Assembly (NCBI RefSeq): GCF_004146235.1
Contig: NZ_SELO01000013.1
Span: forward strand, 1-64,000
Direction: 5' to 3'
From: Tropicimonas sp. IMCC6043
GTDB lineage: Bacteria > Pseudomonadota > Alphaproteobacteria > Rhodobacterales > Rhodobacteraceae
DNA: 64,000 bases
Within the stretch, counting starts at the first letter, position 1. Every line of letters starts with the position of its first letter. Made by a program: the position numbers and the translations under genes. Shown here piece after piece: positions 40,761 to 61,808 of the stretch. The notes under the pieces are model-generated. The model was not told the DNA's origin. It saw only the letters and a list, made by a program, of their open reading frames with translations, and ran no database searches.

Positions 40761-42728
40761 ATGGACGAACGCATCCTCGAGCTGCCGCGTATCACGCTCG
40801 TTTCCACCCGGCTTGGCCCACCCTTGGAAATGGCCCGATGGCTTCTCGAGCGAAGGCGGATTCCCTACGAGGAACAGGCACATGCGCCGATTTTCCACGC
40901 CTTCGTCTCGCGCCGCCACGGTGTCGGCATCGAACTGCCGCTTGTCCGGACACCCGAGGGCCCATGGGTCGGCCTGAAGGGATTCCTGCACGGCCTCGAT
41001 GCAAAATGCCGGCCCGGCGAGAAGGTGCTGGGCGAGACAGATGCCGAACGGGAGCGCGCCGAAAACTGGATCGCACTGTTCTATGACAAGCTCTTCTGGC
41101 CCGCAGTGCAGGTCTATTACCACTTCATGCTGGACCACCGCGAGACGGTCACGCGCTACGCGCTCGACCGCGCGCCCGACTGGCAGAAATTCCTCGTGCG
41201 GACCGGCTTCGGAACCTGGCAGAAGGCCATGCGAAAGGGCATCGGCCTCAAGGATTTCGATCTCGACGCCGCGCTTGGGAGCATCGGCGCGGTCTTCGAC
41301 GCGGTCGAGGCGGAAAGCGGCGAGACCGGGTTTCTCGGCGGTGCCACGCCGTCCGATCTCGACGTGATCTTCGCCGCGCTCGCCGGCCCAATGCTCCTGC
41401 CGACCGATTTCCCGGCCCCGCTTCCCTCCGTGGAGGAACTGCCGGAAGACTATCGCGAGATCGTCATACGTTTCCGCGACCGCCGAGCCGGAATCCTGGC
41501 GCTCGAGACATACCGGCTGGCCCGACCCGAGCCGCAGCCACCCATGACGCGACTGCGCAGCCGTGGCAGCCTCGCCAACCGCCTGACGGAATCGCGCCCT
41601 GCCCTCTGGGCCGCGCGCTGGCTCGCGGCCCGCCGCAGCACGATCTCGCTCCGCGGAACCGTGCTGGCGGTGAACTGGCAGAGCGTCACCGAGATGCTGG
41701 AACGCGATAGCGATTTCATCATCGCCCCAGTGAACGCGCCCCGGATCGAGGGCGTGAGCGGCCCCTTCATCCTCTCGATGGACCGCGGCGACCCCGACCT
41801 CTTTCCGCAGCGCGAGGCCGTCTACGCCTCGCTGCGTCAGGCCGGCCCCGGCGCGGCACGCGATATCCTCGACCGGGAGGCCTCTGCGCTGCTGGAGGCT
41901 GCGCGCGAACGCCATGGACGGATCGATGTCATCAACGGCTACGCCCGCCTCGTCGCGGCCCGAACCGCCGCCGAGATCTTCGGCATTTCCGGGCCGACCG
42001 AGGCGGATCTTGTGCGGGTCATCCGTGCGGTCTTTCACGAAACCTTCCTGAACCTCGGCGACGACCCGGAGGTCCAGGCGCGCGGGCGGGCCGCCGGCGA
42101 AGAACTCGCCGACTGGTTCGCCGCCGAGATCGCCCGGCGCGGTGAGGATGCCGGATCGGACGTTCTCGGCGGTCTCATCCGGGCGCAGCGCGAGTTGCCG
42201 CTGGAGCCGCAGGCGGTGGTCTGGATGGCGGCGGGGCTGATCGTGGGGGCGATCGACACGACGGCGACCTCGGTCGCCAACGCCGCCCGCGTGATTCTCG
42301 AACGCCCGAAGGTTCTCCGGGCGGTGCGTCGCGACCTGGACGACCCGGCCGCCATGACGCGCTGGTGCAAGGAGGCGCTCCGGCAGCGCCCGCACAACCC
42401 AATCGTCCTGCGCAGGACACGGCACGCAACACGCCTGGCCGGCCGCGACATCGCCCCCGGCACGACGGTCATCGCGACGACGCTGGCTGCGATGCAGGAT
42501 GCGAGCGTCTTCCCCCGTCCCGGCAGGCTCCTGCCGCAGCGCGAAGCGAGCCGCTACCTGCATTACGGCCACGGCCTGCATGTCTGCGCCGGCCGCGACA
42601 TCAACGACGTGCAGATTCCTGCCCTCGTGGCGCATCTGCTGCGGGCCGGCGCGGACAAGGTCGTGAGCACCGCTGCTCGGGGGCCCTTCCCCGACGAACT
42701 CGTCGTGCGACTGGGAGAAACGCCATGA
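40761..42728 (+). CDS. GST-like domain fused to cytochrome P450
   Basis: A 655-residue fusion. Residues about 8-240 resemble a glutathione S-transferase: a thioredoxin-like start (LVSTRLGPPLEMARWLLERRRIPYEE), then a helical half ending TPSDLDVIFAALAG. Residues about 270-655 form a short cytochrome P450 with the I-helix motif GAIDTTATS, the ExxR pair E538/R541 in KEALRQRP, and the haem loop YGHGLHVCAGR with Cys609. I know of no common family with this order. It could oxidise a hydrophobic substrate and conjugate or reduce the product. No ferredoxin or reductase gene is adjacent. The stop overlaps the start of the DyP-type peroxidase gene, so the two haem enzymes are coupled. Confidence 0.82.
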   Translation: MDERILELPRITLVSTRLGPPLEMARWLLERRRIPYEEQAHAPIFHAFVSRRHGVGIELPLVRTPEGPWVGLKGFLHGLDAKCRPGEKVLGETDAERERAENWIALFYDKLFWPAVQVYYHFMLDHRETVTRYALDRAPDWQKFLVRTGFGTWQKAMRKGIGLKDFDLDAALGSIGAVFDAVEAESGETGFLGGATPSDLDVIFAALAGPMLLPTDFPAPLPSVEELPEDYREIVIRFRDRRAGILALETYRLARPEPQPPMTRLRSRGSLANRLTESRPALWAARWLAARRSTISLRGTVLAVNWQSVTEMLERDSDFIIAPVNAPRIEGVSGPFILSMDRGDPDLFPQREAVYASLRQAGPGAARDILDREASALLEAARERHGRIDVINGYARLVAARTAAEIFGISGPTEADLVRVIRAVFHETFLNLGDDPEVQARGRAAGEELADWFAAEIARRGEDAGSDVLGGLIRAQRELPLEPQAVVWMAAGLIVGAIDTTATSVANAARVILERPKVLRAVRRDLDDPAAMTRWCKEALRQRPHNPIVLRRTRHATRLAGRDIAPGTTVIATTLAAMQDASVFPRPGRLLPQREASRYLHYGHGLHVCAGRDINDVQIPALVAHLLRAGADKVVSTAARGPFPDELVVRLGETP

Positions 42729-45625
42729 GCTTCACCTACCTGACCCTCGCCTTCCCATTCGACGCCGGCCGCGTGGCCGAGACCGACGCCGTGCTGGCCG
42801 CCGAAGGGCGCGAGACCTATCGCGGCGGCAAGGTGCGCAATGCGCTGCGCGGCAAGGGCGTGCATTTCCTGTCGATCACGACGGTGCCTGCCACTGGCAC
42901 GGAGAAGGCGCACCTTGTCCTCGAATCGTCCCATGACGGCGACAGGGGCCACGCGCTCGACGTGATCGCCAATGATCTGGAGGAGAGCCTCCGGGCAATC
43001 TTCGCCGCCGCCGGCATCTACGCATCGACGGGCGGGCTGCGCCGGTTCCTCGGGGAGCATGCGATCGAGACCGGAATCGGCCTCTTCGACACGCCGGGGC
43101 TGAATCACCGTGGCGTGCCGGGCATGACGGTCGACCGGATCTTTCGCGAGGAGGCCTTCGCCAACCGCCTGCGCGATCTGGTCGTCGCGGACAAGTCTGA
43201 CGGCTCGCCGCTGAGCCGGCTGAAGGCGATCCGGGCGCTGGCCGCGGACCTGCCCGAGGCCGAAGGGCTGATGCAGCCCGAGGATGTCGGCTTCCTCGCC
43301 CCGCGCGAGGTTCCAGAGGGGCGCGGCTATCTGCCAGGCCTCGTGGTCCGCGGCATCGTCATCTTCACCTGGCCTGTCCTCATCCTCGCCGCGCTCAGCA
43401 TCCTCGGGCTCGGGGTCTGGGCCGGCATGACAAGCGGCGTATGGACCGGGATCACCGTCGCAGGGCTCGCACTCATCGCCTGGGTCGTGCTGCTGATCGC
43501 GCTGCTTCTGCTCTTCTATACCGGTCTGCGCAGGCGGGAGACCACCGACGCTCCGGACGACACGACGCCCGACTACAGGGTCCTGAACGATGTCATGAGC
43601 ATCGAGGATGACGGCGACATCAACCACCTTGCGGGAATCTCGATCATGAAGCCGGGGCTGCTGCGCCGCTTGACGCTCAAGATCGCCTTCTGGTTCGTGG
43701 GCCAACTCGCCGCAACACGCTTCCGGCCCGGCTATCTCGGCGAGATCGGCACTATCCACTCCGCCCGCTGGGTCTTGCTGCCGGGCACCGACAAGCTCCT
43801 CTTCTTCTCCAATTTCGGCGGCAGCTGGGAGAGCTATCTGGAGGATTTCATCACCAAGGCCGCGAACGGCCTTACCGGCGTCTGGAGCAACACGCTCGGC
43901 TTCCCGCGCACCTCCAACCTCTTCTTCGAGGGTGCGCGCGACGGCGACCGGTTCAAACGCTGGGCCCGTCGGCAGCAGCGCCCCTCGTGGTTCTGGTACC
44001 GAGCCTATCCCAACAAGACGACCGGAACGGTCCGCCTGAACGCAGCGATGCGGCACGGCCTGCTGACGGCCGCGACCGAGGACCAGGCGCGCGAATGGTT
44101 CGAGCTCTTCGGCTCGCGCCAGCGGCGGGCGAATTCTTTGCAGGCGCCGGAGATCCAGAAGATCGCCTTTGGCGGCATGCGGTCGCTGGCAGACGGCGCC
44201 TGCTGCCTCATCCGCCTGCCGGAGGACGCGGAGGCGGCACGGAGCTGGCTCCGGAAGATCGCCCCGCGCGTCTCCTTCGGCGACGAGAAACCTGGAGACT
44301 CGGCGCTGCTCCTGGCCTTCACGGCGCGGGGGCTGGAGCGGCTTGGCCTCGGCGAGGCCGAAATGGCCACATTTCCCGCCGCCTTCCGGCAGGGAATGGA
44401 CGAGGCGCGCCGGGCACGCTCGGTGCTGATGGACACCGGCGACGACAAGCCCGAGGGCTGGGATTGGGGCCATGGCGCTGCGGCCGTTGACGCGGCGCTC
44501 TACCTGCTCGCCGCCCCCGCCGGCGAGGACAATGCCGCGCTGGCGCTGGTCGAAGACCTGTTGCCGCCGCTCGAGGCGGCCGGTGGCGGGTTCGTGGCGA
44601 TCGTGGAAACCGAGCGGATGCCGGACTCGGGCCCGATCACCGAACCCTTCGGCTTTGTCGATGGAGTCTCGCAGCCGATCCTGCGCGGCACCCGACGCTG
44701 GCCCGCCAACCAGGGCTCGCGCGACGTGGTCGAGCCGGGCGAATTCCTGCTTGGCTATCCCGACAACCGGGGCTTCCTGCCCCCGTCGCCCCACGTCGCG
44801 GCCTCCTGCGACCCCGCGAACCTGCTGCCCGCCCTCGACCGCAACCCGGCCAATCTCGACTGGCCGGACCCGCGCCGCAGCACCGCCAATGCCGCGCGCG
44901 ACCTCGGCTGCAACGGCTCCTACCTCGTCATCCGGCAGCTCGAACAGGCGGTGGAGCGTTTCAACGCGCAGGCGCGGGAGATGGCCACCGCGTTCGAAGG
45001 TCACCCCTGCGTTCCGGCAGGCCTCACCGGCGAACGGCTCTCGATCTGGGTCAAATCGAAGGCGGTCGGGCGCTGGCCGGATGGCTCCTCGCTGACGCGA
45101 CACCCGAACGCTCCCGCGAGCGGTTGGGACGGCAGCAGGGAGGTGGTGCCGGACAACGATTTCCTGCACGGCGTCGAGGACCCGGAGGGCGAGCGTTGCC
45201 CGTTCGGCTCGCATATTCGCCGCTCCAACCCGCGGGACAGTTTCACTCCAGGCTCGGAGGAACAGATCTCCATCGTCAATCGGCACCGAATCCTGCGCGC
45301 GGGTCGCGGTTACCGGCAGCTGCGCGAGGACGGCACGGAGGCGCGCGGGCTGCTCTTCATCTGCCTCAATGCAGATCTCGAACGGCAGTTCGAATTCGTC
45401 CAGCAGACCTGGAACATGTCGCGCCAGTTCCACGGCCTCACCGACGAGGTCGACGCGATCATCGGACGGGGAAAGAAGGGCGGCCAGATCACCATCCCCA
45501 CGGCGCGCGGCCCGATCGTCGTTCAGGGCTTCCAGGACGTGGTGAGGGTCCGCGGCGGCGGATATTTCTTCATGCCCGGGCGGAGCGCGCTGCGGTTCCT
45601 GAGCGGCGGCAATGTCGCCATGTAG
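42725..45625 (+). CDS. DyP-type peroxidase with long N-terminal membrane-associated region
   Basis: A 966-residue protein. The C-terminal half (about 480-966) is a dye-decolourising peroxidase: FGFVDGVSQP with the distal Asp at 646, and CPFGSHIRRSNPRD with the haem-ligand His at 830. The N-terminal half has an alpha/beta region (1 to about 200), two strong transmembrane helices (about 210-268), then a region with EIGTIHSARW and LLFFSNFGGSWESYLEDFI. I recognise the latter only as a segment that accompanies some large DyP proteins. No signal peptide precedes it. The start overlaps the P450 stop (ATGA). A membrane-tethered oxidant generator beside a P450 and a hydrolase arsenal is unusual; substrate unknown. 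Confidence 0.85.
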   Translation: MSFTYLTLAFPFDAGRVAETDAVLAAEGRETYRGGKVRNALRGKGVHFLSITTVPATGTEKAHLVLESSHDGDRGHALDVIANDLEESLRAIFAAAGIYASTGGLRRFLGEHAIETGIGLFDTPGLNHRGVPGMTVDRIFREEAFANRLRDLVVADKSDGSPLSRLKAIRALAADLPEAEGLMQPEDVGFLAPREVPEGRGYLPGLVVRGIVIFTWPVLILAALSILGLGVWAGMTSGVWTGITVAGLALIAWVVLLIALLLLFYTGLRRRETTDAPDDTTPDYRVLNDVMSIEDDGDINHLAGISIMKPGLLRRLTLKIAFWFVGQLAATRFRPGYLGEIGTIHSARWVLLPGTDKLLFFSNFGGSWESYLEDFITKAANGLTGVWSNTLGFPRTSNLFFEGARDGDRFKRWARRQQRPSWFWYRAYPNKTTGTVRLNAAMRHGLLTAATEDQAREWFELFGSRQRRANSLQAPEIQKIAFGGMRSLADGACCLIRLPEDAEAARSWLRKIAPRVSFGDEKPGDSALLLAFTARGLERLGLGEAEMATFPAAFRQGMDEARRARSVLMDTGDDKPEGWDWGHGAAAVDAALYLLAAPAGEDNAALALVEDLLPPLEAAGGGFVAIVETERMPDSGPITEPFGFVDGVSQPILRGTRRWPANQGSRDVVEPGEFLLGYPDNRGFLPPSPHVAASCDPANLLPALDRNPANLDWPDPRRSTANAARDLGCNGSYLVIRQLEQAVERFNAQAREMATAFEGHPCVPAGLTGERLSIWVKSKAVGRWPDGSSLTRHPNAPASGWDGSREVVPDNDFLHGVEDPEGERCPFGSHIRRSNPRDSFTPGSEEQISIVNRHRILRAGRGYRQLREDGTEARGLLFICLNADLERQFEFVQQTWNMSRQFHGLTDEVDAIIGRGKKGGQITIPTARGPIVVQGFQDVVRVRGGGYFFMPGRSALRFLSGGNVAM

Positions 45626-45639
45626 TGGCCCGGCAGATC

Positions 45640-45673
45640 GCCGATTGGTACCGGCAACCGGTTTCCAATCGGC
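45640..45673 (+). terminator. hairpin after the peroxidase gene
   Basis: Nine-base arms (GCCGATTGG with CCAATCGGC) enclose a nested CCGG-CAA-CCGG, 15 bp after the peroxidase stop. A strong stem without a T-run. It probably separates the P450-peroxidase unit from the next gene. Confidence 0.5.
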
Positions 45674-45861
45674 CGCGCGATTTTCGGAACCGATTACCGT
45701 GCTCACTGCAATTCGACGGGGATTGTCCTTTTTACGATTCCGAAAATGTGCGTGTCTTCGTGCAACGGCCGCCTGGAATTAAACTTGGATATCATTCGCA
45801 CCCCAGAATTATCGTTCGTTCTGTGATATATTCCTAGACGCGCGATACAGGAGACATTCCC

Positions 45862-48800
45862 ATGCCCGAGAGAATTTCCCTGGCCGGATTTCAATCCATG
45901 CTCGACGACCCGAGCGTGCCGGACTCCGAAATTGCCGAGTATCTGAAAGCCGAAAGCGGAGTCGGCGCATTCGACCCGGTTTTCGTTCCGGACCCGGAGC
46001 TTGTCGATACCGGGCGCGAAGAACGCGGGATGGTGATCGGCAACCGGATCTGCCGGCAAAGGCGCCGCGCGCGGTTCTGGTGGCGCCGCCGCAACGGGGT
46101 CGATCTGCCGGTCATTGTCACCGAGGGCGACAGCTGGTTCCAGTTCCCGTTCCTGATCGAGGACGTCGTCGACCATCTCGACGCGGGTTACCTCGCCTAT
46201 AGCTGCGGCGCGGCGGGCGACACCGCGCGGAACATGATCTTCGACGCACCCGAATACATGAGCGCGCTGGACGAGCAGGCCAAGGATGTCGCGGCGTTCC
46301 TCCTGTCTGCGGCCGGCAACGACGTCATCGGCGCCGACGAAAACGGCGTCCCGGCGCTGGAACGCATTCTGCACCGGCGCTCCGATGCGAAACGCACCGC
46401 TCACCAGCTTGTCAACAAGACCGAGCTCAACCGCGTCCTTGCCGCGCTCCGCGAGGGGTATGAGACGGTGGTCCGCACGATCCGCTCGGATGCCCGCTTC
46501 GCGAACCTGCCCATCCTGTTCCACGGCTACGATTACGCGCTTCCCTTCCCGGCCGGCGCGCGCGATCCGCGCGATCCGCCCTATGCCGGCAGGGACCATT
46601 GGCTCGGCGCACCGATGGCGGCCAAGGAGATCGACGATCCGGAGCTGCGGCGCGAGATCGTCGAGATCCTGATCGACGCGCTCTACGACATGCTCGAAAG
46701 CGTCGCCGAGACTGACCAGCATGTCCATGTCGTGGACATCCGCGGCACGCTTCCGAGGCTGCGGGACTGGACCGACGAGATCCATGCCACCTCGGACGGC
46801 TTTGCCCGGGTCGCCGAACGTTTCAGCGGGGTCCTGAGGGATGTCGTCCGGCAGCGCCCGCCCCGGATTGCTGGCATTCCGGGCCCGGAGGGCACGGTCC
46901 CTGCGCCGGAGATCGATGTCGAGATCCGGGAAATGAACCTTCTCAAGGACCGGATCGAGGACCTCGACCCGGCGCTGCTCGGCTTCGGGGATGTCGACAA
47001 GTTCGCCTCCGGATTTGCGCGCACCCGGGAGCGGATCGCCCGGCGGGCCACCCCCGAGATGGCCATCGACGACGACGATTCCCTGCCCTTCCGCTTCCTT
47101 GCGAACGGTGCGGAGGTCGGCCGTGCGGTCTGCAAGCTGACCTGCGAGGGGATCAGCTTCAACGGCCGGAGCGGGCGCTGGCGCGGCACCGGTTTCCTCG
47201 TCGCGCCAAACCTGCTGCTGACCAACAATCACGTCATCAACTCGGCCGAGGTCGCGCGGTCGGCGCGGGCGATCTTCGACTTCTACGAGGAATCCGCCGG
47301 CCGGTTCGCCGCCACGACGACCTTCACGCTCAATCCCGAGCGCCTCTTCATCTCCAGCGCCTTCAGCGAGCTCGACTACAGCTTCGTCTGGATCGATGGC
47401 GCCCCGCACGAGAGCTTCGGGACAATCCCGTTCTGGCGCGGCTCCTTCATGGCGCGCGACCGGGCCAATGCGAATATCGTTCATCATCCGCAGGGCCAGC
47501 CCAAGCGCAGTTCGATCAAGAACAATCAGGTGGTCGATCTCGGCAAGCGGGAGGTCCTGATCCACTATGCGACCGATACCGATCAGGGCAGCTCGGGCTC
47601 GCCGGTCCTGACCGATGACTGGCGTCTCTTCGCGCTGCACCACGCGGTGAGCGAGGCGCTTCCCGACGAGATCCGCACGCGCATCCTGAACCAGATCGGC
47701 CGTGACGTGACCGTGCTGAACGAAGGAATCAAGACCTCGGCGATCGCGATCGACATCGACCGCCGGGCGGCGCGCGGACCGGACCAGGCGGCCGCGCGGC
47801 ACGTGCAGTCCTATCTTGGTGGAACGGACTCGCGCACCGGTTACTTCGGCTCGCTCGGCCGGAGCGGCAAGGGAGAGGGCCTGGAAGCCGTGGTCGACAC
47901 CTACCGGGGCACCTCGGAGGATGTCGACATCGCCTTCTGGAACGTCGAGTGGTTCAACCGCCGCTACGAGGAGAAGATCGACGACGTCGCCCGCATCGTG
48001 GCCGATCTGAGCCTCGACATCTGGGCCATGGAAGAAACCTCGCCGCAGGCGACCGAAGCGCTTGTGGACTATCTCAACAGCACGTTCGGCCAGAGCTTCA
48101 ACTTCGCTGCCTCTGAGCCCGGGGCGGCCTCAGGCCGGCAGTCGACCACCGTGATGTGGAACACGCGGACCGTGGACGGGGTGCGGCTGGACTGGCCGGA
48201 GGAGATCCATTCGCTGCTCAAGCTCAGAAGCGACGATCCGGAAGCACGCCGGTTCGAGGCGGTCGAAGGCAGGATCTTCGATCGCTACCCCGGCCTCTTC
48301 CGGTTCACGGCGCTGCACCAACCAGCGGGCGCGCCGCCCTTCGATTTCAACCTCGTGCCGGTGCATCTCAAGGCGAAGAGCGAGGGTGCCAAGCGTCGGC
48401 GCATGGCGAGTGCGATCCTCGCCCGAGCGGTGGAGCTAACGTCCGGGACCGGGGTCGCGGAGAACGACTGGATCATAGGCGGCGATTTCAATGCCGAGCT
48501 TGCGACCGGCGAGTTCGACCCGTTGCAGGATGCCGGCTTCCGCTCCATGAGCGCGGCCGACGAAAAGGGCGGCGCCGTCACCTATCTCAACCGACCCCAC
48601 CGGTCGCTGATCGATTCGATCTTCCTGTCGCCGGGCTTCCGTCCGCGCGTCGATGCCGACGACTTCATGATCGTCGCGCAGGACCGGCGGGATTCCGGCT
48701 TCGTCACGCGCGTCTCCGATCACCGCCCTGTCATGTTGCGCCTCAGCATCTCCGAGGAACCCCGCATCCGGCGCGCCCCGGTCGCAGCGACGGCGGCTCC

Positions 48801-48909
48801 GCGTCCGCCTGAGCGCGAACGGCCGTATCTCGACATCTTCGCGGAGGAGGTAAAGCGCGACCCGGCACAGGTCCTCGCGGATCTCGCCACGCGGTTCCGA
48901 AAGGACTGA
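45862..48909 (+). CDS. three-enzyme fusion: SGNH-like hydrolase, trypsin-like protease, EEP nuclease
   Basis: A 1015-residue cytoplasmic-looking protein with three catalytic modules. (1) About 83-330: SGNH/GDSL-like hydrolase with EGDSWF (Ser91), AGNDV and the DEIH block (His308). (2) About 408-635: trypsin-like protease introduced by LPFRFLANGAEVGRAVCKL, with His457 in LLTNNHVI, Asp505 in SELDYS and Ser578 in DQGSSGSPV. (3) About 687-980: endonuclease/exonuclease/phosphatase domain with AFWNVEW, MEET, VPVHLKAKSE, GGDFNAE and SDHRPVML. It therefore could cut esters, proteins and nucleic acids or phosphodiesters. CAGGAG lies 8 nt before the ATG. It converges on the VWA gene. No signal peptide. 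Domain calls are by motif; linkage of functions is inference. Confidence 0.85.
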   Translation: MPERISLAGFQSMLDDPSVPDSEIAEYLKAESGVGAFDPVFVPDPELVDTGREERGMVIGNRICRQRRRARFWWRRRNGVDLPVIVTEGDSWFQFPFLIEDVVDHLDAGYLAYSCGAAGDTARNMIFDAPEYMSALDEQAKDVAAFLLSAAGNDVIGADENGVPALERILHRRSDAKRTAHQLVNKTELNRVLAALREGYETVVRTIRSDARFANLPILFHGYDYALPFPAGARDPRDPPYAGRDHWLGAPMAAKEIDDPELRREIVEILIDALYDMLESVAETDQHVHVVDIRGTLPRLRDWTDEIHATSDGFARVAERFSGVLRDVVRQRPPRIAGIPGPEGTVPAPEIDVEIREMNLLKDRIEDLDPALLGFGDVDKFASGFARTRERIARRATPEMAIDDDDSLPFRFLANGAEVGRAVCKLTCEGISFNGRSGRWRGTGFLVAPNLLLTNNHVINSAEVARSARAIFDFYEESAGRFAATTTFTLNPERLFISSAFSELDYSFVWIDGAPHESFGTIPFWRGSFMARDRANANIVHHPQGQPKRSSIKNNQVVDLGKREVLIHYATDTDQGSSGSPVLTDDWRLFALHHAVSEALPDEIRTRILNQIGRDVTVLNEGIKTSAIAIDIDRRAARGPDQAAARHVQSYLGGTDSRTGYFGSLGRSGKGEGLEAVVDTYRGTSEDVDIAFWNVEWFNRRYEEKIDDVARIVADLSLDIWAMEETSPQATEALVDYLNSTFGQSFNFAASEPGAASGRQSTTVMWNTRTVDGVRLDWPEEIHSLLKLRSDDPEARRFEAVEGRIFDRYPGLFRFTALHQPAGAPPFDFNLVPVHLKAKSEGAKRRRMASAILARAVELTSGTGVAENDWIIGGDFNAELATGEFDPLQDAGFRSMSAADEKGGAVTYLNRPHRSLIDSIFLSPGFRPRVDADDFMIVAQDRRDSGFVTRVSDHRPVMLRLSISEEPRIRRAPVAATAAPRPPERERPYLDIFAEEVKRDPAQVLADLATRFRKD

Positions 48910-50983: not shown

Positions 50984-52777
50984 TCAGTTCGGTTTGACCG
51001 GCTCCCCGGTGGAAAGCGGGCGGACGACCCGGAAGCCGAAATCCTCCCGGCTCTGGCCGCGGGGATAGAAAAACCGGTTTGATGCGCGCGTCTCCTCGGG
51101 CGGAGAGCGCCAGCTGCCGCCACGCAGGACGCCGGTGCAGGTGGGGCTGTCGTCGACCGTACCGCCGAGGCCGTCCAGATAGGCCGTCGCGCAATTCGCG
51201 GTCCATTCCCAGACATTGCCCGAGAGGTCATGGAGGTCGAAGGCATTGGCCTTGTAGCTCGCAACCGGGACCGGCGCTTCGGAAAGATCGCCAAAATTCG
51301 CCGCGCCGGGAATCGCAACCGGTCCGGTCGGGAACTTAAGTTGCATGCCGCCGCGCGCGGCGTATTCCCACTCGACCTCCGTCGGCAGCCGATACGCCGC
51401 CCCGCTGCGTCGTCCGATCCAGGCCAGGTATTTGTCGAGATCCTCCCAGGTAACACCGGTGACCGGATGGTTGGCAGCGCCCGCTTTCGGCGGGCACGCG
51501 AGATCGCTCTCGCACAGGTCCCACTCGGCATGGGTGACCTCGGTCCGGGACATCGCAAACGGGCTGCCGATCACGACCGGGTGTTTCGGCTTCTCCACGT
51601 CCGAACCGAAATCGGCCCCCATCTCGAATGCGCCGGCGGGCAGCACCACCATCTCCGGGCATCCGGCGCAATCGGAGAAGGCCTCCGGTAGGTCCGCCGG
51701 GCGCGGCGGATCCGGTCGCGGCGATTGGGCCGCGCCACCGCCTGCGCCCGCGCCGAGCGCGGACACGACGTCGCTGGGAGGGGCCGGATCCTGCCGCGAC
51801 GCCACGGGTTCCTCCCCGGAGCGAAGCGGCACCTCGAAGAAGAACGCGCCGTCGTCGTCATGCAGCGCCGCGACCCGAGGCGACATTTTGTAGGGGCGCC
51901 CGAGGCGCCGGGAGTTCAGCCGCTCGATTTCCCTGTCGAGCGTCCGGGCGATGTGGATCTGGATTTCCTGGAGCGACACGAACCCATCCGGATCGCCACC
52001 CGCCGCGAGGTCCGCGTTCCGTGCGGCATCGATGAAGGCGTTGGTGAAGAGGCTCCTTCCATTGACGATCAGCGCCTCCTCGTCCTCAAGGCCGGCGGTC
52101 AGGATGTGATGCGCGCGTTGCGACAACCGAGCCAGAGTGGTGCGCCGCGGCGCGCTCATGGTCTGGGCCCCGGCGAGCCCGGAAAAACAGGCATCGACGA
52201 CCCAGAGGCCGTGGCGTGCCCGCGCGAGGTCGAGCGACCAGGCCTGGATCGACTCCATGCTGACCATGGCGCTCCAGTTCGTCCGGCTCCGCGCCTGGCT
52301 GGTCACGAGGTAGCCCCGCTTGCGCCCGCCGGCGAGGCTCCGTGTCTCGCCGTGGCCGGAATAGTGAAACAGGAAACGGTCGTCGGGACCGATCCGCGGC
52401 GGCAGGACTTCCGTCAGCAACCGTTCGAGGCGGGCCCGCGAGGCCGCCCGGTCGGTCAGCAGGACCACGAGGTCGAACCCCGCCTCCCCGAGCAGGAAAT
52501 CCCGCATCCGCTGCGCGTCCTCGGTGCGTCCCGGCAGGTCAGCATAGGCCGACTCGTAGTCGCCGATGCCGATCACCACTGCGATCGATTGCCCGAACGG
52601 GGTCTTTCCGAAAAGCCGCGCGAAGCGGGGCCAGGGCGGCCCCTCTCGCGCCGAGAAACGGACCTCGCACAGGCCGTTTTCCGGCGCGTGGCCGTCACAG
52701 ATCTCCTCGAGTTTGTCCGCGACGGCAGCGCCTGCAAGCAGGAAAAGGAGGAATACCGCTGCGACCGCGGCCGTCAT
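50984..52777 (-). CDS. caspase-like peptidase fused to FGE/sulfatase-modifying domain
   Basis: A 597-residue exported protein (signal MTAAVAAVFLLFLLAGAAVA). The caspase-like (C14) domain spans about 63-315, with the catalytic dyad His142 in FHYSGHGE and Cys197 in VVDACFSG. A Pro/Ala linker leads to a formylglycine-generating-enzyme-like domain (about 373-592): MVVLPAGAFEMG, RTEVTHAEWD, HPVTGVTWEDL, LPTEVEWEYAARGG, NVWEWT and RGGSW. In many such fusions the FGE-like domain is a binding module. The ATG at 52777 overlaps the stop of the 2-TM gene; the VWA gene follows 18 bp later. Caspase, VWA and CHAT proteins recur in bacterial conflict and cell-death systems, usually with NTPases that are not seen here. 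Confidence 0.88.
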   Translation of the reverse strand: MTAAVAAVFLLFLLAGAAVADKLEEICDGHAPENGLCEVRFSAREGPPWPRFARLFGKTPFGQSIAVVIGIGDYESAYADLPGRTEDAQRMRDFLLGEAGFDLVVLLTDRAASRARLERLLTEVLPPRIGPDDRFLFHYSGHGETRSLAGGRKRGYLVTSQARSRTNWSAMVSMESIQAWSLDLARARHGLWVVDACFSGLAGAQTMSAPRRTTLARLSQRAHHILTAGLEDEEALIVNGRSLFTNAFIDAARNADLAAGGDPDGFVSLQEIQIHIARTLDREIERLNSRRLGRPYKMSPRVAALHDDDGAFFFEVPLRSGEEPVASRQDPAPPSDVVSALGAGAGGGAAQSPRPDPPRPADLPEAFSDCAGCPEMVVLPAGAFEMGADFGSDVEKPKHPVVIGSPFAMSRTEVTHAEWDLCESDLACPPKAGAANHPVTGVTWEDLDKYLAWIGRRSGAAYRLPTEVEWEYAARGGMQLKFPTGPVAIPGAANFGDLSEAPVPVASYKANAFDLHDLSGNVWEWTANCATAYLDGLGGTVDDSPTCTGVLRGGSWRSPPEETRASNRFFYPRGQSREDFGFRVVRPLSTGEPVKPN

Positions 52778-52971
52778 CGCTTCCGGATCGTCGCGACCAG
52801 CGTCACCAGCGACGTCGCGAGGCCGGTCACCGAGGTCGCCAGTCCGATCCAGGCCAGGGTGGCGTCGCTGTCGCCCATGGTGTCGACGCCCGCGACGGGG
52901 CGCATCTGATACCAGAGTGCAAATCCGAGGACTGCTACGAGCAGCCCTCCGTAGAGGAGCCAGGATTTCAC
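52774..52971 (-). CDS. small two-helix membrane protein
   Basis: A 65-residue protein with two hydrophobic helices (LLYGGLLVAVLGFALWY and IGLATSVTGLATSLVTLVATI) joined by a short acidic loop. Its stop overlaps the caspase-FGE start (ATGA), so the pair is translationally coupled. The fold resembles small hole-forming or anchor proteins. It could hold or release the exported protease, but no family is recognised. Confidence 0.75.
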   Translation of the reverse strand: MKSWLLYGGLLVAVLGFALWYQMRPVAGVDTMGDSDATLAWIGLATSVTGLATSLVTLVATIRKR

Positions 52972-53083: not shown

Positions 53084-53860
53084 TCAGATCTCGATATCGG
53101 CCACGAAGTCTTGCGTCCGCTCGGCCAGCTTCCTCGCCACCGCGGGCCCTGCCGCCCCGAAGGCCGTCGGGTTGACCGTCATCCGCTTCGAGAAATGGCG
53201 CAGCCGCGCCCCGGAATCGGAAAACCGGAAGAACAGCACCTGGGTGACCGCGCGATGCGCCTCCAGCACGAAGGCCGCCAGCGAGATCACCGGGACGCCG
53301 TCGACGACATCGGCATAGCTGATCTGGAACTGGTTCGCCTCCGCGCGCTGGCTCGTGCGATCGAAGAGCGTGATCCAGGGGCTGTTCTTGTCCATCGCCG
53401 CGAGGCCGTCGAGCACCGCCTTGAGCGCCGTCGCCGCGCCGACCGCCGGCGCCATCACCGCCGTCAGCACCGGAATGATCTCCTTGTGGACCTCGAGCGT
53501 CGTCCCGGTCACCTCCTTGAGGGTGATCGCGCGGTCCTCGTCGGTCAGCCCGAGCCCGCCAAGGACCCGGACATATTCCCTGTACCAGGCTTCCGTGTCG
53601 CCGCCGGTCTTCTCGATTTGCTTGTCGGCGGCGAGCTGGGCCAGCAGGAAGGCGTTGGCGATCGGTTCGCGCAGGCCCTCGTCGAACCCCTCGGCAAAGG
53701 CGGCGATCTGCGACCCGACGGCGACGGAGTCGCTCCCGGTCTTGGTGAAATCGGGGGGCGGAAGAGCTGCCGCCTCGGTTCCACGCAGCGGGCCGAGGCC
53801 GATATCGGGCAGATCGAGGGTTTCGACGAATGCAATGGCGGCGGCGGGAGAATCGGACAT
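53084..53860 (-). CDS. conserved-looking protein of unknown function (258 aa)
   Basis: Soluble, mostly helical in appearance, without signal peptide. An alanine-rich hydrophobic segment (VLTAVMAPAVGAATALKAVL, about 130-150) might insert in a membrane or pack as a core helix. The second half has NQFQISYADVVDGVPVISLAAFVLEAHRAV and VLFFRFSDSGARLRHFSKRMTVN, which look like a structured beta/alpha domain. I do not recognise it. It lies 38 bp after the lipase-subtilase gene and 112 bp before the 2-TM gene, so it is part of the same run and could be a regulator, inhibitor or scaffold. Confidence 0.75.
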   Translation of the reverse strand: MSDSPAAAIAFVETLDLPDIGLGPLRGTEAAALPPPDFTKTGSDSVAVGSQIAAFAEGFDEGLREPIANAFLLAQLAADKQIEKTGGDTEAWYREYVRVLGGLGLTDEDRAITLKEVTGTTLEVHKEIIPVLTAVMAPAVGAATALKAVLDGLAAMDKNSPWITLFDRTSQRAEANQFQISYADVVDGVPVISLAAFVLEAHRAVTQVLFFRFSDSGARLRHFSKRMTVNPTAFGAAGPAVARKLAERTQDFVADIEI

Positions 53861-53898
53861 GGAAACCTCTCAGAAAATCCGGTTGGTGCGGAAGTGGC

Positions 53899-56640: not shown

Positions 56641-56693
56641 CTTTGCTGTCTCCCTCTTTGGCGGTTTCTGCCGGCCCGGCGTCCGGAGTCGGG

Positions 56694-59177
56694 TCAGGCG
56701 AACGGATCGAAGGGCGGGACCGGGCAATGCGCGGCCGGATCGCCATAGATCTTGAAGGCGAGCCAGGAGGCATCGCCGAATCCCTTGGCGGCGTTCCGGG
56801 CTTCCCGCGCCGCCCGGGCGAGGGACTCGCCGTTCAGCAGCACGCGGTAGAACTGCCGGGCGAAGGCGGCGGCCGGGCGGTCATAGACCGGCCAGGACGA
56901 TCCCACGAAGGCCCCAGCCCCGCGCTCCATGAAGACCTTCGGCCAGCCACCCCAGGAGGTCAACACCACACCCTCCCGGCCGGTCTCGCAGGCATTGAGG
57001 AAAACCAGCGGCCGGCGTGCCTTCAGGCGCGCCTCGGCCTGGATCGACACGGTGTCGACGCCAAGCCGCGTGGCCGCGCCTTCCGGTCCCGGCCGGTCGC
57101 CGATGATCAGCCGGGCGCCCTCGATCGCATCATGGTCGCTCTCGGCATGGCAGGCGAGGTGGAGGACGTCGAACTCGCCGCGCGATAGCGTCTCGAGCAA
57201 TGCATCGACGGTCGGCTCGATCGAGTCGAGACGGATCTGCGGATTTACCAGGGCCGGGTCGGGACCGGTGAAGAAATCGGTCTCGCTGCCGACCGCGGCA
57301 AGCGAGCCCATCGGGAAGTTCGCCGCCATCCAGCACCAGTCGCCCAGTTCCAGCGTCTGCGCCGCCTCGACCCCCGCGGAGCTGCGCACGAGCCCGTATT
57401 CTGCGAGGAACCTGTCGTCAACCTCCTGGCTGTCGGGATGCTCGAGCCGCACCAGCTCCCATGGCACATAGGGTTCGAAGGAAACCACCTGGATCACTTC
57501 GATCCGGTCCCGCATCGGCCAGAGCCGCCGGATCGCATCATCGGGGAAGAGCTCCCGCGACAGCATCTGGCCGATCCGCCTGAGATCGCTCGTCAATTGC
57601 CGCAAATCGGCGCTGGACCGGAGCTCCGGGGTCACGCGCTCATAGATGCGGCGTACGAAATCGATCTCGGTCCGCGCCCGGCCACCGCCGGCATCCCGAA
57701 GCGGTTCGGAGAGGAAATTCTCCACCACCCCGAGCTTCGGCCCGTAGAGGAAATACTCGTAGCGGAACTCGTCGCCCGTCATCCTTTCGCTGATCCTCAG
57801 CAGGAGCGTGCCCGCGTCGGCCACACGCGGCGGGCGCGCCGGAACGCGGCGCGGCGCGGCGACGGTGCTCGCTTCGTCTTCAACCACCTCCATCTCCAGC
57901 CCGATCACGCCCAGCTGCGAGCCCTCCTGCAAGAAGGCAAGCTCCATGCGTGCCGCACCCGCTTCACGCCCGCGCACCCGGAAGAACCCCGAGCGCGGCT
58001 GGTCGGCCGAAGGTGGGTCCACGACGTGGATAGATTGCCCAATCAACTCGAGCGCTGGCCCGTGCATCGCCAGCATCACGGTGATCGACCGGTCCGTCCG
58101 CGCCGCCGTCCGGATCGCGTGTATCAACGGGCGAGCGACCGCGCTGCGTTCGAGCAGGTAGAGGATCGTGGCCTCTGTCCCGACTTCGAGCTCCGCCGGC
58201 GCATTGGCCGACAGCGTCATGTCGACGGTCGCGGGCGACGCCGCCTCGGCATCGCCGGCCCCGCGCGGCGCGCCAAGGACGAGCAGGTCGCCGTCCGTGT
58301 CGTCGTCCTGAGGTGTCCCGGTTGCGCCGAAGTCGATCTCGAATGCGCCGGGAATGATGTCGTCCTCCTCCGGCGCTGCCGGAGCGTCCGCAGGTTCACG
58401 CGGCGCAAATGACGGCTGCGGCCGGTGCTCCTCTGCCGGCGACGCATCGCCCACACCGAACTCCCGGTCGAGGTCGAATTCTTCGAAGGACAACTCGGGT
58501 TCGGCCGGCGATCCCTCCTCCTCCGGCGCCGCGGTTTCCTCCATCGGCTCCTCGGCCGCATCTTCGTAGCTCGGTTCGGCGCTCGGCGCGCTCTCTTCCA
58601 TTGCGCCGCCATCGTGGCGCGGAAACTCGAGATCGAAGTCCAGATCGTCGACGGACGGCATCGGGGCAACCGGACCCAGGTCTCCTTCTGGAGCACCGGC
58701 ATCTTCCAAGTCGAAATCCGCCTCCACTGGGAAATCGGAGCCAGGCAGGTCGAGCTGCGGGGACGCGACATCGGGTTCGGCCGGATAAGCGAGCGCGACG
58801 ACGCTTCCCGTGGAGTCGAACTCGACAACCCTCTCGGCCGCTGGCCCCTGGCGGTTGTAGGTGTCCTCGGTGACGACCCGGTCGCCGCGCGCCTGAAGGC
58901 TCGACCCCCATTCATGGAGGCCCAGACCGTCGACCAGGGCCACCTGCCAGTGCGCGCCCGGCTCTCCGGCGATGTCGCGGATTTCCTCCACACGAAAGGC
59001 GTAGACGAAATGCTCCCCGGTGAATTCGTGCCGGCGGCGGACGACGACCCAGTCCGGGCGCGTCGATTCGATTGCCGACATCAGACTGCCGAGGCTGCGT
59101 TCAGCGGAAACCGTCAAAGCATTGGGCTGCCGTTCCACCCGTGGTTCGGCGCCGAAAAAATCGAAAAGACGTGTCAT
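56694..59177 (-). CDS. CHAT-domain protease with acidic linker
   Basis: An 827-residue protein. Residues 1-135 form an alpha/beta domain of unknown type (FDFFGAEPRVERQ, RRRHEFTGEHFVYAFRVEEI). Residues about 140-310 are a very acidic, low-complexity linker. Residues 320-440 look beta-rich. The C-terminal CHAT caspase-fold domain (about 555-827) has His677 in LHLACHAES and Cys730 in VFLNACETGR, followed by GAGAFVGSSWPVYD. CHAT proteases are activated by partner proteins in several bacterial immune systems. The ATG at 59177 follows GGAG by 8-9 nt. It lies 53 bp before the lipase-subtilase gene and shares its strand. Confidence 0.88.
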   Translation of the reverse strand: MTRLFDFFGAEPRVERQPNALTVSAERSLGSLMSAIESTRPDWVVVRRRHEFTGEHFVYAFRVEEIRDIAGEPGAHWQVALVDGLGLHEWGSSLQARGDRVVTEDTYNRQGPAAERVVEFDSTGSVVALAYPAEPDVASPQLDLPGSDFPVEADFDLEDAGAPEGDLGPVAPMPSVDDLDFDLEFPRHDGGAMEESAPSAEPSYEDAAEEPMEETAAPEEEGSPAEPELSFEEFDLDREFGVGDASPAEEHRPQPSFAPREPADAPAAPEEDDIIPGAFEIDFGATGTPQDDDTDGDLLVLGAPRGAGDAEAASPATVDMTLSANAPAELEVGTEATILYLLERSAVARPLIHAIRTAARTDRSITVMLAMHGPALELIGQSIHVVDPPSADQPRSGFFRVRGREAGAARMELAFLQEGSQLGVIGLEMEVVEDEASTVAAPRRVPARPPRVADAGTLLLRISERMTGDEFRYEYFLYGPKLGVVENFLSEPLRDAGGGRARTEIDFVRRIYERVTPELRSSADLRQLTSDLRRIGQMLSRELFPDDAIRRLWPMRDRIEVIQVVSFEPYVPWELVRLEHPDSQEVDDRFLAEYGLVRSSAGVEAAQTLELGDWCWMAANFPMGSLAAVGSETDFFTGPDPALVNPQIRLDSIEPTVDALLETLSRGEFDVLHLACHAESDHDAIEGARLIIGDRPGPEGAATRLGVDTVSIQAEARLKARRPLVFLNACETGREGVVLTSWGGWPKVFMERGAGAFVGSSWPVYDRPAAAFARQFYRVLLNGESLARAAREARNAAKGFGDASWLAFKIYGDPAAHCPVPPFDPFA

Positions 59178-59194
59178 TCGCGCCGCTCCATTTG

Positions 59195-59355
59195 CCGGAA
59201 TGGATCTGGCGCCGCGCCCGACGGAATTGGGCGAGGGCCGAAAATGGTCTGCGGGAAAGGTCTGAATTCCATGATCCAATCACCGACGAAATACCAATAT
59301 CCGACCCGCATCCGGGATCCGGAATGGAAAATAATTCGCGCGCCTGATCCGGAAT
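59195..59355 (-). promoter_or_regulatory. upstream region of CHAT gene with repeated GGAAT-containing elements
   Basis: GATCCGGAAT occurs at 59316-59325 and again at 59346-59355, exactly 30 bp apart, about three helical turns. CCGGAATGGA occurs at 59195-59204 and 59319-59328. The spacing suggests binding sites on one DNA face in front of the CHAT gene. No known consensus matches. Confidence 0.35.
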
Positions 59356-59399
59356 TTACCACGCCGAAGCATTTGGCGCTACCGCGCGTTGCCCTGACG

Positions 59400-61085
59400 T
59401 CAGCGAATCCCGCTCCAGAACAGGTGCCTTCCGATGGTCGCGACCAGAGTCGCCCCGGGGGATTTCCGGACCCAGCGTGGCTGGGCAATACTGCTCGCGT
59501 AGTAATGCAGGGCGCCGGCAACCCGGACAGGCAGACGGCCGAAGACCGCTGCCGCCGCGATCTCGAGCAGCGCGTCGAAGACCGGGTTCGCGCCGGGTTC
59601 CAGCGCCTCGATGACGCGCCGGTTCGGATCGGATTCGTTCCAGCAGGAGAATTGCCACCGTTGCAGGCAGACCTTCGCAATCGTGTTCGGATAGCGCGCC
59701 GACCGGACGCGGTTCAGGATCACGTTGGCCACGGCCTCCTGCCCCTCGCGCGGCTCGCCCCGCGCCTCGCCGTAAAGCGTGCGGGCGAGCGTCAGGATCT
59801 CGGCCTCGATCGCGGCGTCCCGAACCGGTGGCGCCGCAGCCAACGCCGGGCGGTCGGCCACCGGCGCCGCCTCCCAGATCTCGCCCAGCCCGAGGGCGCG
59901 GCCGGTCTCCGGCCCCAGTTCGCCATCCACCGCCAGACCGCGATCCTCCTGGAAGGCGGCCACCGCATCGGCCGTCGCGGCGTCGTAGATGCCGTTGACC
60001 TGACGCTCGACGAGCAGGCTCAGCTCGACGAGCCGCGTCTGCGCGCGCTCGACGATGGGGCTGTGGCCCGCTGGCGGGTCGAGGAGCTTGAACACCAGCA
60101 GGTCGCTGCCGATCCCGTCCGGCAGGTCGTAGAGGACGCCGGGCAGCAGCACCGCGCAATCCCAGCTTCGGTTCAACGCATTGTGCTGGCAGACACCGCG
60201 AGCGCGTCCATGCGCCTCGTAGGTGTCGCCGCCATTCCCGAGGGAAATCGCGACATGCCCGTAGGGCGGTGGCGACCCGCGCGGCGGAAAGCGCAACAGG
60301 ATCGCGCCGGGGATCTGCAACGCATCGCGCCAGGCGATCTTCAGACCGCGGTCGACCGCGTCCCGTTGCCAGTAACCCGAATAGGAGTTGAACCGCTTCT
60401 GCGGATCGCGGTTTACGCCATAGGGGATGCGATAGGCCCGCCAGGCGCAATAGGAGGCGTATTCGGCGCAGTCGAACGGGCCGGACCAGTTCGGGTCGTC
60501 GTAATCTGGCGTCGGCGAGAAGGCATAGCGCTGACCGATATGGCGGCGGGCGATGTCGAGGATCGCCGCGCCGAGCCGGAAAGCAACCGGGGACGAGCCG
60601 TCATCTGCTGCCGGCTGAACCGGCTCCGCGGTCGTCGCCGGGGCGTCATGCGTCGGCGGCGCGAGCGGTTGGGCCAGCAGCGCGGCCTCGAACGCCTGGC
60701 CGGGCGCGGCGTCCGGAGTGATCCACTCGGTGCCGGCGATCCAGTGGACGAGGCCGCGCAGCGCCGCCACCGTCACCGCCCGCATCGCCTCCTCGCCGCC
60801 GGCGTCCAGCGCTTCGGCGAGGCCGCGCGCGAGCACAATGGTGTTGCGCCGCGTCGAAATGTAGTGGCCCCGCGGATCGCTCCCTTCGATCTCGCCCGGC
60901 TCGGCGAGAGCGATCCAGGGATTGGTCGGATATCCGAGCGCATGGTCCAGCTTGTCGAGCCTGCCCGCACAGGCCGCCTCCAGCGCTTCCCGGAGCGCGG
61001 GATTGGCCGCGACACTCTCGGAGAGCCCCTCGATGGCGCCGCCGAGTTGCGGGAAATCGTCCGAAATGCTCGCCGCGATACGCAT
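59400..61085 (-). CDS. cell-wall hydrolase: NlpC/P60-like, PG-binding and SleB domains
   Basis: A 561-residue protein with four regions. Residues 1-125 resemble a zincin-like domain whose active motif is degenerate (AALRGLVHW, lacking the HE of HExxH). Residues about 168-335 look like an NlpC/P60-type peptidase with Cys206 (GPFDCAEYA) and His277 (PYGHVAIS). Residues 341-400 are a peptidoglycan-binding type 1 domain (VNGIYDAATADAVAAFQ). Residues 428-561 are a SleB/hydrolase-2 domain with catalytic Glu440 in TLYGEARGE and QFSCWN. No signal peptide is seen, so it needs another route to reach the wall or acts on incoming material. The gene lies 222 bp upstream of the CHAT gene. Confidence 0.83.
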   Translation of the reverse strand: MRIAASISDDFPQLGGAIEGLSESVAANPALREALEAACAGRLDKLDHALGYPTNPWIALAEPGEIEGSDPRGHYISTRRNTIVLARGLAEALDAGGEEAMRAVTVAALRGLVHWIAGTEWITPDAAPGQAFEAALLAQPLAPPTHDAPATTAEPVQPAADDGSSPVAFRLGAAILDIARRHIGQRYAFSPTPDYDDPNWSGPFDCAEYASYCAWRAYRIPYGVNRDPQKRFNSYSGYWQRDAVDRGLKIAWRDALQIPGAILLRFPPRGSPPPYGHVAISLGNGGDTYEAHGRARGVCQHNALNRSWDCAVLLPGVLYDLPDGIGSDLLVFKLLDPPAGHSPIVERAQTRLVELSLLVERQVNGIYDAATADAVAAFQEDRGLAVDGELGPETGRALGLGEIWEAAPVADRPALAAAPPVRDAAIEAEILTLARTLYGEARGEPREGQEAVANVILNRVRSARYPNTIAKVCLQRWQFSCWNESDPNRRVIEALEPGANPVFDALLEIAAAAVFGRLPVRVAGALHYYASSIAQPRWVRKSPGATLVATIGRHLFWSGIR

Positions 61086-61097
61086 GGCGCCACTCCC

Positions 61098-61808
61098 TCA
61101 GTCGAAGTCCGGAATGTCGAATGTCTCGACAAAGAGCGGGAAAAGGTCGATCGGGCTGAGATGGCCGATCTCTGCTGTTCCGTCCCCGGCCGGAATGCCG
61201 AAACGCGCCTTCTCCTCAGCCGTGAGATTCTCGATGTTGACGGTAAGATGCGTGGCGACAGCATCGATGGTCGCGGCGTCGGCCAGGCCGCTGCAATCCG
61301 CACCGCCGCAGTCGATGCCGAAAGAGCCCCCGGTTCCTTCGGACGTCAGGAACGCCTGCACCCGCCGGACGATCCGGCTCGGCGCCATCGGGTCTGCCGC
61401 GTCCGCTACGGTGGCAACCGCGCTGTCTGTCCCGGGACCGGCCGACGCGAGCGAGAGCACGCCCGGAAAGTCACACCGGATCGCCTGCGGGCCGCTCCCG
61501 AGCAGGAAGGTCTCGCCGATCTCCATCGCGTAAGGGCCGACCTTGCAGAAATAGGCGTAGCTCTCCGGGCAAACACTGCCTTCGGAAACCCACTGCCCGT
61601 CCTCGCAGGAATGCAGGACCGATACCACGTCGGTTCCCTGCGTCCGCGGGATGCAGGCAGAGGAACCGCTGGAATAGGCAGCTCCGCCGAGCGTGCAATC
61701 CGCGGCGGCAACTCCGGCGGACGGCAGGATCAGACAAAGAATCGCGAGCGCGGCTCGGAGGCGAAGCGGGTCGTCGGCGGCAGTGACGTGAGGTCGTCCT
61801 TTCGGCAT
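61098..61808 (-). CDS. secreted cysteine-containing protein of unknown function
   Basis: A 236-residue protein with a signal peptide (hydrophobic LAILCLILPSAGVAAA, cleavage before ADC) and at least eight Cys in the mature part (CTLGG, SACIP, HSCEDG, SVCPES, FCKVG, IRCDF, IDCGGADCSG), pointing to disulfides in the periplasm or outside the cell. No family recognised. ATG 61808 has GAGG 6 nt upstream. It is the first gene of the - strand run, 12 bp ahead of the wall hydrolase, and might be an inhibitor or exported partner of it. Confidence 0.7.
   Translation of the reverse strand: MPKGRPHVTAADDPLRLRAALAILCLILPSAGVAAADCTLGGAAYSSGSSACIPRTQGTDVVSVLHSCEDGQWVSEGSVCPESYAYFCKVGPYAMEIGETFLLGSGPQAIRCDFPGVLSLASAGPGTDSAVATVADAADPMAPSRIVRRVQAFLTSEGTGGSFGIDCGGADCSGLADAATIDAVATHLTVNIENLTAEEKARFGIPAGDGTAEIGHLSPIDLFPLFVETFDIPDFD

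Follow-up and report, generated by a model that had tools for sequence, protein, structure and literature searches.

A modular array of proteases and of lipid-, nucleic acid- and wall-cleaving enzymes in Tropicimonas sp. IMCC6043, with a possible Cyt-like protein among its recurrent parts

An array of eleven adjacent genes lies at positions 40761-61808 of the first 64,000 nucleotides (hereafter the window) of contig NZ_SELO01000013.1 from Tropicimonas sp. IMCC6043 (assembly GCF_004146235.1, family Rhodobacteraceae), whose genome comprises 5.46 Mb. A sequence-only reading had proposed these genes as a single multi-effector system; the analysis reported here describes the locus as a modular array, in which a 258-residue protein, P0006 (hereafter P6), is the element joining the modules. 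All eleven open reading frames (ORFs) were present, in two convergent groups whose stops are separated by 25 bases, in agreement with the earlier view that they do not form one operon. The three plus-strand genes encode P450, DyP and SGNH-trypsin-EEP proteins, and the eight minus-strand genes encode, in order of transcription, a secreted Cys protein, a wall hydrolase, a CHAT protease, a lipase-subtilase, P6, a protein with two transmembrane (TM) segments, a caspase-FGE protein and a VWA protein. With the starts chosen here, the intergenic gaps ranged from 12 to 236 bases, in addition to two 4-base overlaps, and G+C by codon position was of the coding type in ten of the eleven ORFs, the exception being the small two-TM ORF. 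All the claimed active-site motifs that were searched by pattern were found, the FGE domain and the two-TM protein lying outside that check.

On the plus strand, P0001 (40761-42728) consists of an N-terminal domain fused to a cytochrome P450 (E 1e-10; EALR, GAIDTT and GLHVCAG motifs); its earlier label, GST-P450, was borne out by Pfam for the P450 half, but nothing in Pfam matched the 'GST' half. P0002 (42725-45625), the ATG of which overlaps the P0001 stop by 4 bases, is a membrane DyP-type peroxidase with two TM segments (TIGR01413 E 4e-20, below the curated cut-off; GxxDG, GSHIR). P0003 (45862-48909) is an SGNH hydrolase-trypsin-EEP nuclease fusion with the motifs of all three parts and matches to Trypsin_2 (E 2e-16) and Exo_endo_phos (E 5e-9). 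The SGNH label of P0003 is carried by GDS, GND and DxxH blocks found by pattern and by homologous domains in loci L076, L082 and L103 that match Lipase_GDSL_2, but no Pfam model matched the domain in P0003 itself.

On the minus strand, P0004 (48935-50965) is a predicted exported VWA protein with repeats (VWA_2 E 2.5e-10; DGSGS) and an N-terminal hydrophobic segment, and P0005 (50984-52777, starting with the ATG at codon 79 of a longer ORF) is a predicted exported caspase (C14)-FGE fusion (Peptidase_C14 E 6e-13, FGE-sulfatase E 9e-45; SGHGE, DACFSG) with a hydrophobic N terminus. The 65-residue two-TM protein (52774-52971, GTG start), recognised from its ORF and hydropathy, overlaps the caspase start by 4 bases and is real as an ORF. 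P6 (53084-53860), for which no Pfam family was matched, is a possible Cyt-like membrane protein and a recurrent partner of proteases, as judged from family alignment A1, structural ranks obtained with VIA-align, and linkage. P0007 (53899-56640, from codon 30 of a longer ORF) is a class 3 lipase-subtilase fusion (Lipase_3 E 2.7e-21, Peptidase_S8 E 1e-29; GHSLG, DTGVD, HGTH, GTSMA), and P0008 (56694-59177, from codon 35 of a longer ORF) is a TCAD7-DUF7363-CHAT protease (CHAT E 3e-20; DUF7363 below its cut-off; ACHA, NACE), whose TCAD7 domain (E 3e-7, above its cut-off) had been overlooked by the sequence-only reading and was found by Pfam. P0009 (59400-61085) is a CHAP-peptidoglycan-binding-Hydrolase_2 wall hydrolase without a hydrophobic N terminus (Hydrolase_2 E 9e-23, PG_binding_1 E 6e-13, CHAP weak at E 0.004), and P0010 (61098-61808) is a small predicted exported Cys-rich protein with a hydrophobic N terminus and no Pfam match. 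Apart from the 'GST' and SGNH labels discussed above, Pfam or NCBIfam agreed with the names given earlier to the P450, DyP, trypsin, EEP, VWA, caspase, FGE, class 3 lipase, subtilase, CHAT, peptidoglycan-binding, Hydrolase_2 and, weakly, CHAP domains. The hydropathy scan, which saw no signal peptide on P0003, P6, P0007, P0008 or P0009, also agreed with the proposed mixture of exported (VWA, caspase-FGE and the last Cys protein) and non-exported members.

Linkage around P0003 was surveyed in 80 loci, up to 10 kb on each side, by phmmer searches with the window's domains as single sequences, which miss distant forms; in L076 and L082, for instance, the caspase domain was detected by Pfam alone, as was the L027 subtilase. 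SGNH and trypsin domains were fused in five and adjacent (<1.5 kb) in 40 of the 80 loci (45/80 together), and were neither fused nor adjacent in the remaining 35, which include L019 without an SGNH match. For a comparison of near with far genes, the 78 loci in which a P0003-like gene had been called were thinned at 60% identity to 45; the gene caller, which mis-calls antisense frames in high-GC loci, was used solely to pick neighbours for this comparison. Trypsin_2 was matched in 17 of the 84 direct neighbour genes (Pfam) and was not among the 25 families listed, out of 82, for the 66 genes lying 6.5-9.5 kb away. By phmmer, the near and far counts for trypsin were 17/84 versus 0/66 (Fisher p 2e-5), and p would be 2e-4 if one far Trypsin_2 match lay unlisted (1/66). 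Subtilase and CHAT each occurred in 2/84 near genes, and neither was among the families listed for the far set. Other matches in the 80 loci were to DyP (4), P6 (3), CHAT (3) and the 'GST' part (1); the flanking AEC transporter gene, taken as a control, was matched in 2/80, so DyP stands little above it. Across species, the partners of SGNH comprised trypsin-EEP, caspase (by annotation also in Rhizobium plasmids), CHAT beside an alpha/beta-hydrolase-like part (L055), subtilase (L102) and amidase-M15 (L103), and trypsin was found fused to either EEP or Endonuclease_NS.

P6 was found in five of 198 genomes of the family, its own included, and in all four others a CHAT, subtilase or trypsin gene lies within 20 kb, compared with about 0.07 such links expected by uniform placement in the 198 genomes. 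In G157, which belongs to another genus, genes for CHAT-nSTAND1, CHAT, lipase-subtilase and P6 are arranged in the same order as in the window, on a contig of 12.6 kb from an 84% complete genome; the lipase-subtilase (68% identity) adjoins P6, the CHAT match (58%) reads over one TAG near its end, and a gene with autoinducer-binding and LuxR-type domains lies beside the module. In G192, P6 accompanies a lipase-subtilase (54%) with a trypsin gene about 10 kb further, and the ORF upstream of the lipase-subtilase (L109, 15512-19861) had no Pfam match. In G146, P6 directly precedes a trypsin-SGNH protein, and in G133 a trypsin protein lies 15 kb from P6, with an AAA_16 cyclase protein nearby. Also in G133, about 0.5 kb from P6, lies the gene (L112, 8849-11845) for a protein of 999 residues that has amine oxidase and acetoacetate decarboxylase-like matches. 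An NTPase (nucleoside triphosphatase) thus stands beside P6 in some relatives, as nSTAND1 in G157 and Rhizobium leguminosarum and as the AAA_16 protein in G133.

On plasmids, P6 was matched in 43 records, 40 of them listed, and neighbourhoods were examined for six, with positions compared for one more. A Sinorhizobium fredii plasmid carries P6 followed by amidase-M15-SGNH and trypsin-EEP (the EEP by phmmer only), and S. meliloti has a similar arrangement, one copy of which seems broken, its P6 frame being short and its trypsin-EEP gene split. In R. leguminosarum, P6 lies between CHAT-TPR-S with a GH108 muramidase and TIR-nSTAND1-WD40. Two Sinorhizobium loci (L128, 11995-13660; L130, 7995-9656) hold two adjacent P6-family genes, the first of which shares about 25% identity with P6 of the window, and no protease partners were seen; in L128 the tandem genes lie near tyrosinase and multicopper oxidase genes. 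In searches with P6 alone, six of eight lineages, grouped by judgement, were linked to a CHAT, subtilase or trypsin gene. Moreover, L027 holds CHAT, P6, subtilase and SGNH within 9 kb, and L076 and L082 encode SGNH-caspase-M15-P6 in a single chain; these three loci owe their detection to the SGNH search and so do not count as independent of it. A search of 385 genomes of the class, at least five of them from the window's family (its own included), matched the window's own genome only. Carriage of P6 by phages was rejected, as no match was obtained in phages or viral contigs.

The DyP part was matched in 81 plasmid records, 40 of them listed, and in seven of these 40, six of which are Sulfitobacter, the gene under the match is annotated as cytochrome P450. 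A phmmer search confirmed the P450 part for Pararhizobium (L105) but not for Sulfitobacter (L104), where the name comes from annotation, and in Skermanella a P450 gene is adjacent to DyP. Six of the eight closest listed records (H127-H134) were assessed: in three, a gene for trypsin-nuclease or trypsin lies no more than 1 kb away (L101 and L120 by inspection of the locus, the third by its positions), one has a nuclease alone (L122), and two lie in arrays, L102 with subtilase, CHAT and phospholipase D, and L121 with amidase, GH25, subtilase, matrixin and patatin. In the family genomes, searched with the DyP half of P0002, that part was matched in 17 of 198 besides the window's own, none of them on the contig of a P0003 or P6 match, and a link of DyP to P0003 in this sample was therefore rejected. 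P450 and DyP together probably form a separate oxidant unit sitting beside such modules. The long DyP genes of L104, L105 and L123 (P450-DyP by annotation in the first two) are each directly preceded by a gene some 1.6-1.8 kb long, which is hypothetical in L104, an adenylate/guanylate cyclase in L105 and a SARP regulator in L123, i.e., of a regulator or signalling type in the latter two. The L121 array (1495-32769, Rhizobium ruizarguesonis plasmid) is larger by annotation and, with the DyP relative among its genes, further includes metallophosphoesterase, DUF2272 and PG-binding genes and a serine protease followed by an MBL-fold hydrolase. Downstream of the P450-DyP fusion in L105 (21774-36339, Pararhizobium plasmid), seven consecutive genes lacked any Pfam match, as did three further hypothetical or uncharacterised genes in L121, ten in all.

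The eleven-gene set recurred nowhere among the loci and genomes examined, and the claim that all eleven work as one system therefore fails. Its proponent had named recurring linkage as the decisive observation, and linkage is absent for the whole set but present for sub-modules, namely SGNH with trypsin, P6 with proteases, and DyP with trypsin-nuclease on some rhizobial plasmids, for which reason the locus is regarded as a modular array and not as one fixed system. The VWA, caspase-FGE, wall hydrolase, two-TM and secreted proteins are tied to the rest by this operon only. The array also sits in a mosaic stretch, because DNA similar to the window in two genomes of the same genus (G002, G003) begins at 62070 and runs rightwards, with no similarity in the 18-19 kb to the left of that boundary, and because the left-flank genes, though present in the genus, are scattered over different contigs. 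The best named relatives of P0003 come from Alloyangia and Salipiger, and no strong match to it was found in the eight other genomes of the genus, which gave no more than a weak match to the trypsin part, in G007. The array has a G+C content of 0.68, against 0.65 for the window as a whole and 0.51-0.59 at positions 1-6000. Elsewhere in the window, minus-strand genes at 33599-36674 encode multihaem c-type cytochromes (Cytochrome_cB, C7 and c3-like matches), with matching DNA in six of the eight other genus genomes. Such a setting, together with the lack of recurrence of the full set and the unlinked DyP in the family sample, would suit an absence of any joint function, the region being a mosaic accessory stretch that gathered separate enzymes and small modules, each acting alone. 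This explanation is a serious one yet appears rather unlikely, as the genes are tightly spaced with two 4-base overlaps, the order of CHAT, lipase-subtilase and P6 is kept in another genus, and SGNH, caspase, M15 and P6 are fused in single chains.

The possible nature of P6 was approached with two AlphaFold2 models built from the same four sequences, one of P6 (pLDDT 56, pTM 0.62) and one of the P6 part of L076 (pLDDT 44, pTM 0.45), both of low confidence. When 999 chains were realigned to the first model with VIA-align, volvatoxin A2, Cyt2Ba and three Cyt1A entries took ranks 1-5 (Z 5.6-5.1), with Evf at rank 8 and the first unrelated chain at Z 4.8. For the second model (about 1000 chains), two volvatoxins and five Cyt entries took ranks 1-7 (Z 7.3-5.7), the next unrelated chain having Z 5.5. 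Because one small family leads both rankings, the models suggest, without proving, that P6 has a Cyt-like fold. A P6 profile from alignment A1 matched Cyt1Aa in PDB at E 0.026, but hits to phycoerythrin (E 0.033) and to prefoldin (E 0.044 with A1, otherwise E 0.14) were of comparable strength, so that the sequence evidence for a Cyt relation is weak.

Among known systems, the closest is System 3 of Kaur et al. 2020 (NucA-trypsin with multiple peptidases), for which the available text of that paper proposes a proteolytic cascade releasing the nuclease (PMC7159879). Like the present locus, it is mostly alphaproteobacterial, combines trypsin with a nuclease, and sometimes includes a subtilase, lysozyme- or papain-like wall enzymes and a STAND NTPase (PMC7159879), and the trypsin of P0003 fits it by its Trypsin_2 match and triad motifs. 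It differs in its nuclease, which is NucA there and EEP here, and in the SGNH, lipase, CHAT and P6 parts added here. No NucA/Endonuclease_NS was found in the ten window proteins scanned with Pfam, P0003 carrying Exo_endo_phos instead, and no EAD model for the EAD1 adaptor of a System 3 subset matched at E 0.01 in these proteins, the presence of that model in the Pfam copy used being unchecked. Trypsin-NucA proteins do occur near DyP or P6 in plasmid relatives (L101, L119). No word starting with lipase, peroxidase, P450, EEP, GDSL or Cyt toxin appears in the available text of PMC7159879. The best reading is that the locus is close to System 3 and would work like it, with EEP, SGNH, lipase, CHAT with TCAD7, and P6 as variant parts, but is not filed under it because the defining NucA is absent.

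Other comparisons cover single parts of the array. The protease-activated nuclease pairs of Hachiman and AVAST (Tuck et al. 2025) likewise couple a trypsin-like protease to a nuclease, but, as described in the available text, theirs is an MBL-fold nuclease on a separate gene (PMC12799240), whereas the EEP here is on the same chain. LypABC, a CARD-NLR-like lysis system of the alphaproteobacterium Caulobacter, requires a trypsin-endonuclease protein for lysis; it differs in having CARD and NLR components, and the available text, which describes the executioners as unknown, mentions no P6-like protein (PMC13236601). Likened by domains alone, P0003 and the LypABC protein are both of the trypsin-endonuclease type, P0003 adding SGNH and having EEP as its nuclease. 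The Cyt/Evf/volvatoxin family gave the best structural matches of the two P6 models, but shows no lasting sequence match, and P6 stands beside intracellular proteases and is not a secreted or crystal toxin. The locus resembles bacterial gasdermin-protease systems, which PMC13236601 also mentions, in that its CHAT, caspase or trypsin proteases have a possible membrane-active partner at their side; it differs in that P6 has no gasdermin match, none being obtained in the Pfam or PADLOC lists for the window proteins and the P6 family. TCAD domains, which by their Pfam label we take to stem from vWA-MoxR or ternary conflict systems, link the locus to these systems through TCAD7 on the CHAT protein, as does the presence of VWA, caspase and FGE in one operon; unlike in those systems, the ten proteins scanned contain no MoxR/STAND or other NTPase, and the VWA and caspase-FGE proteins are predicted to be exported. 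Among the papers listed in searches of open-access literature, none was seen to join Cyt-like proteins with bacterial conflict systems, and the matches listed for TCAD7 by name concerned unrelated topics only.

With a probability of about 0.4, we propose that the locus is a composite, mostly cytoplasmic lytic arsenal aimed at the producing cell, in which proteases would trigger self-lysis and P6 would serve as a Cyt-like membrane executioner. Its core would be the minus-strand module of CHAT protease, lipase-subtilase and P6, with the SGNH-trypsin-EEP protein as a second, System 3-like protease-nuclease unit. From the domains, motifs, gene layout and sub-module linkage observed, we infer that a trigger would activate the proteases, a STAND-type NTPase being at hand in some relatives, and that these would cleave or release P6, which would then permeabilise the inner membrane. 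The next target would be lipid, attacked by the lipase and SGNH domains; the signal-less wall hydrolase would reach peptidoglycan via the damaged membrane, and the EEP nuclease would degrade nucleic acid, leading to lysis of the cell. For a wall hydrolase located in the cytoplasm to act, the membrane must first be breached, as happens in holin-endolysin lysis, and P6 is the candidate for the breach. The role of the proteases as the switch is suggested by analogy with trypsin-like proteases, whose activation of pro-nucleases has been demonstrated in other systems according to the available text of PMC12799240.

Several results weigh against this proposal. Both P6 models are of low confidence and derive from the same four sequences, all their Z scores are below 8, within the range of possible coincidence, and unrelated chains follow closely. 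No Cyt protein was among the 50 Foldseek rows listed for the first model, such proteins appearing only after realignment with VIA-align; the Cyt1Aa profile match was lost with both a larger and a smaller P6 alignment; and the Cyt family gave no Pfam match in 13 P6 members at E 1. In line with the sequence-only reading, which saw no NTPase switch, the scan of ten window proteins yielded no NTPase domain. In the single-sequence phmmer scan of the 80 P0003 loci, VWA, caspase-FGE, lipase-subtilase, wall hydrolase, P0010 and P450 were matched in none. P6 also occurs without nearby proteases, in the tandem-copy Sinorhizobium type and once in Vibrio; the tandem type accounts by identity for 34 of the 40 listed plasmid records (two examined), and the unlinked type is the majority when counted by plasmid record.

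An improbable alternative is that the products are outward weapons, i.e., effectors that would be delivered to competing bacteria or to protist predators, P6 attacking the target membrane in the way that Cyt, Evf and volvatoxin act on eukaryotic cells. The available text on this family describes action on foreign eukaryotic cells (PMC5390079), and the predicted export of the VWA, caspase-FGE and P0010 proteins and the position of relatives on rhizobial plasmids near mobile or conjugation genes are consistent with delivery; on the other hand, the core proteins P0003, P6, P0007, P0008 and P0009 show no signal peptide, no secretion apparatus was found among the 20 window genes scanned (a subset of its genes), and relatives have CHAT, STAND and TIR partners. 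Proteins of these three kinds are typical of intracellular immunity. Programmed lysis serving gene transfer or release in place of antiviral suicide, as by LypABC for gene transfer agents in Caulobacter, is very unlikely, for although LypABC is an alphaproteobacterial trypsin-endonuclease system whose lytic effectors are unknown according to the available text (PMC13236601), and the G157 module adjoins its autoinducer-binding and LuxR-type gene, no NLR-like ATPase or CARD was matched in the ten proteins scanned.

The self-directed lytic arsenal favoured here has a wider and doubtful extension, in which P6 would found a family of bacterial Cyt-fold executioners, intracellular pore formers that would be activated by CHAT, subtilase, trypsin or caspase partners, constitute an independent counterpart of gasdermin, and be deployed with wall, lipid and DNA hydrolases, in some species within one polypeptide. 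If this were true, a known toxin fold would be tied to self-directed lysis, and the insect-active Cyt toxins and Evf would be related to proteins of bacterial self-destruction. Furthermore, bacterial cell death would gain a second membrane-executioner fold, and P6 and its partners would be candidates for the lytic effectors still missing in alphaproteobacterial systems.

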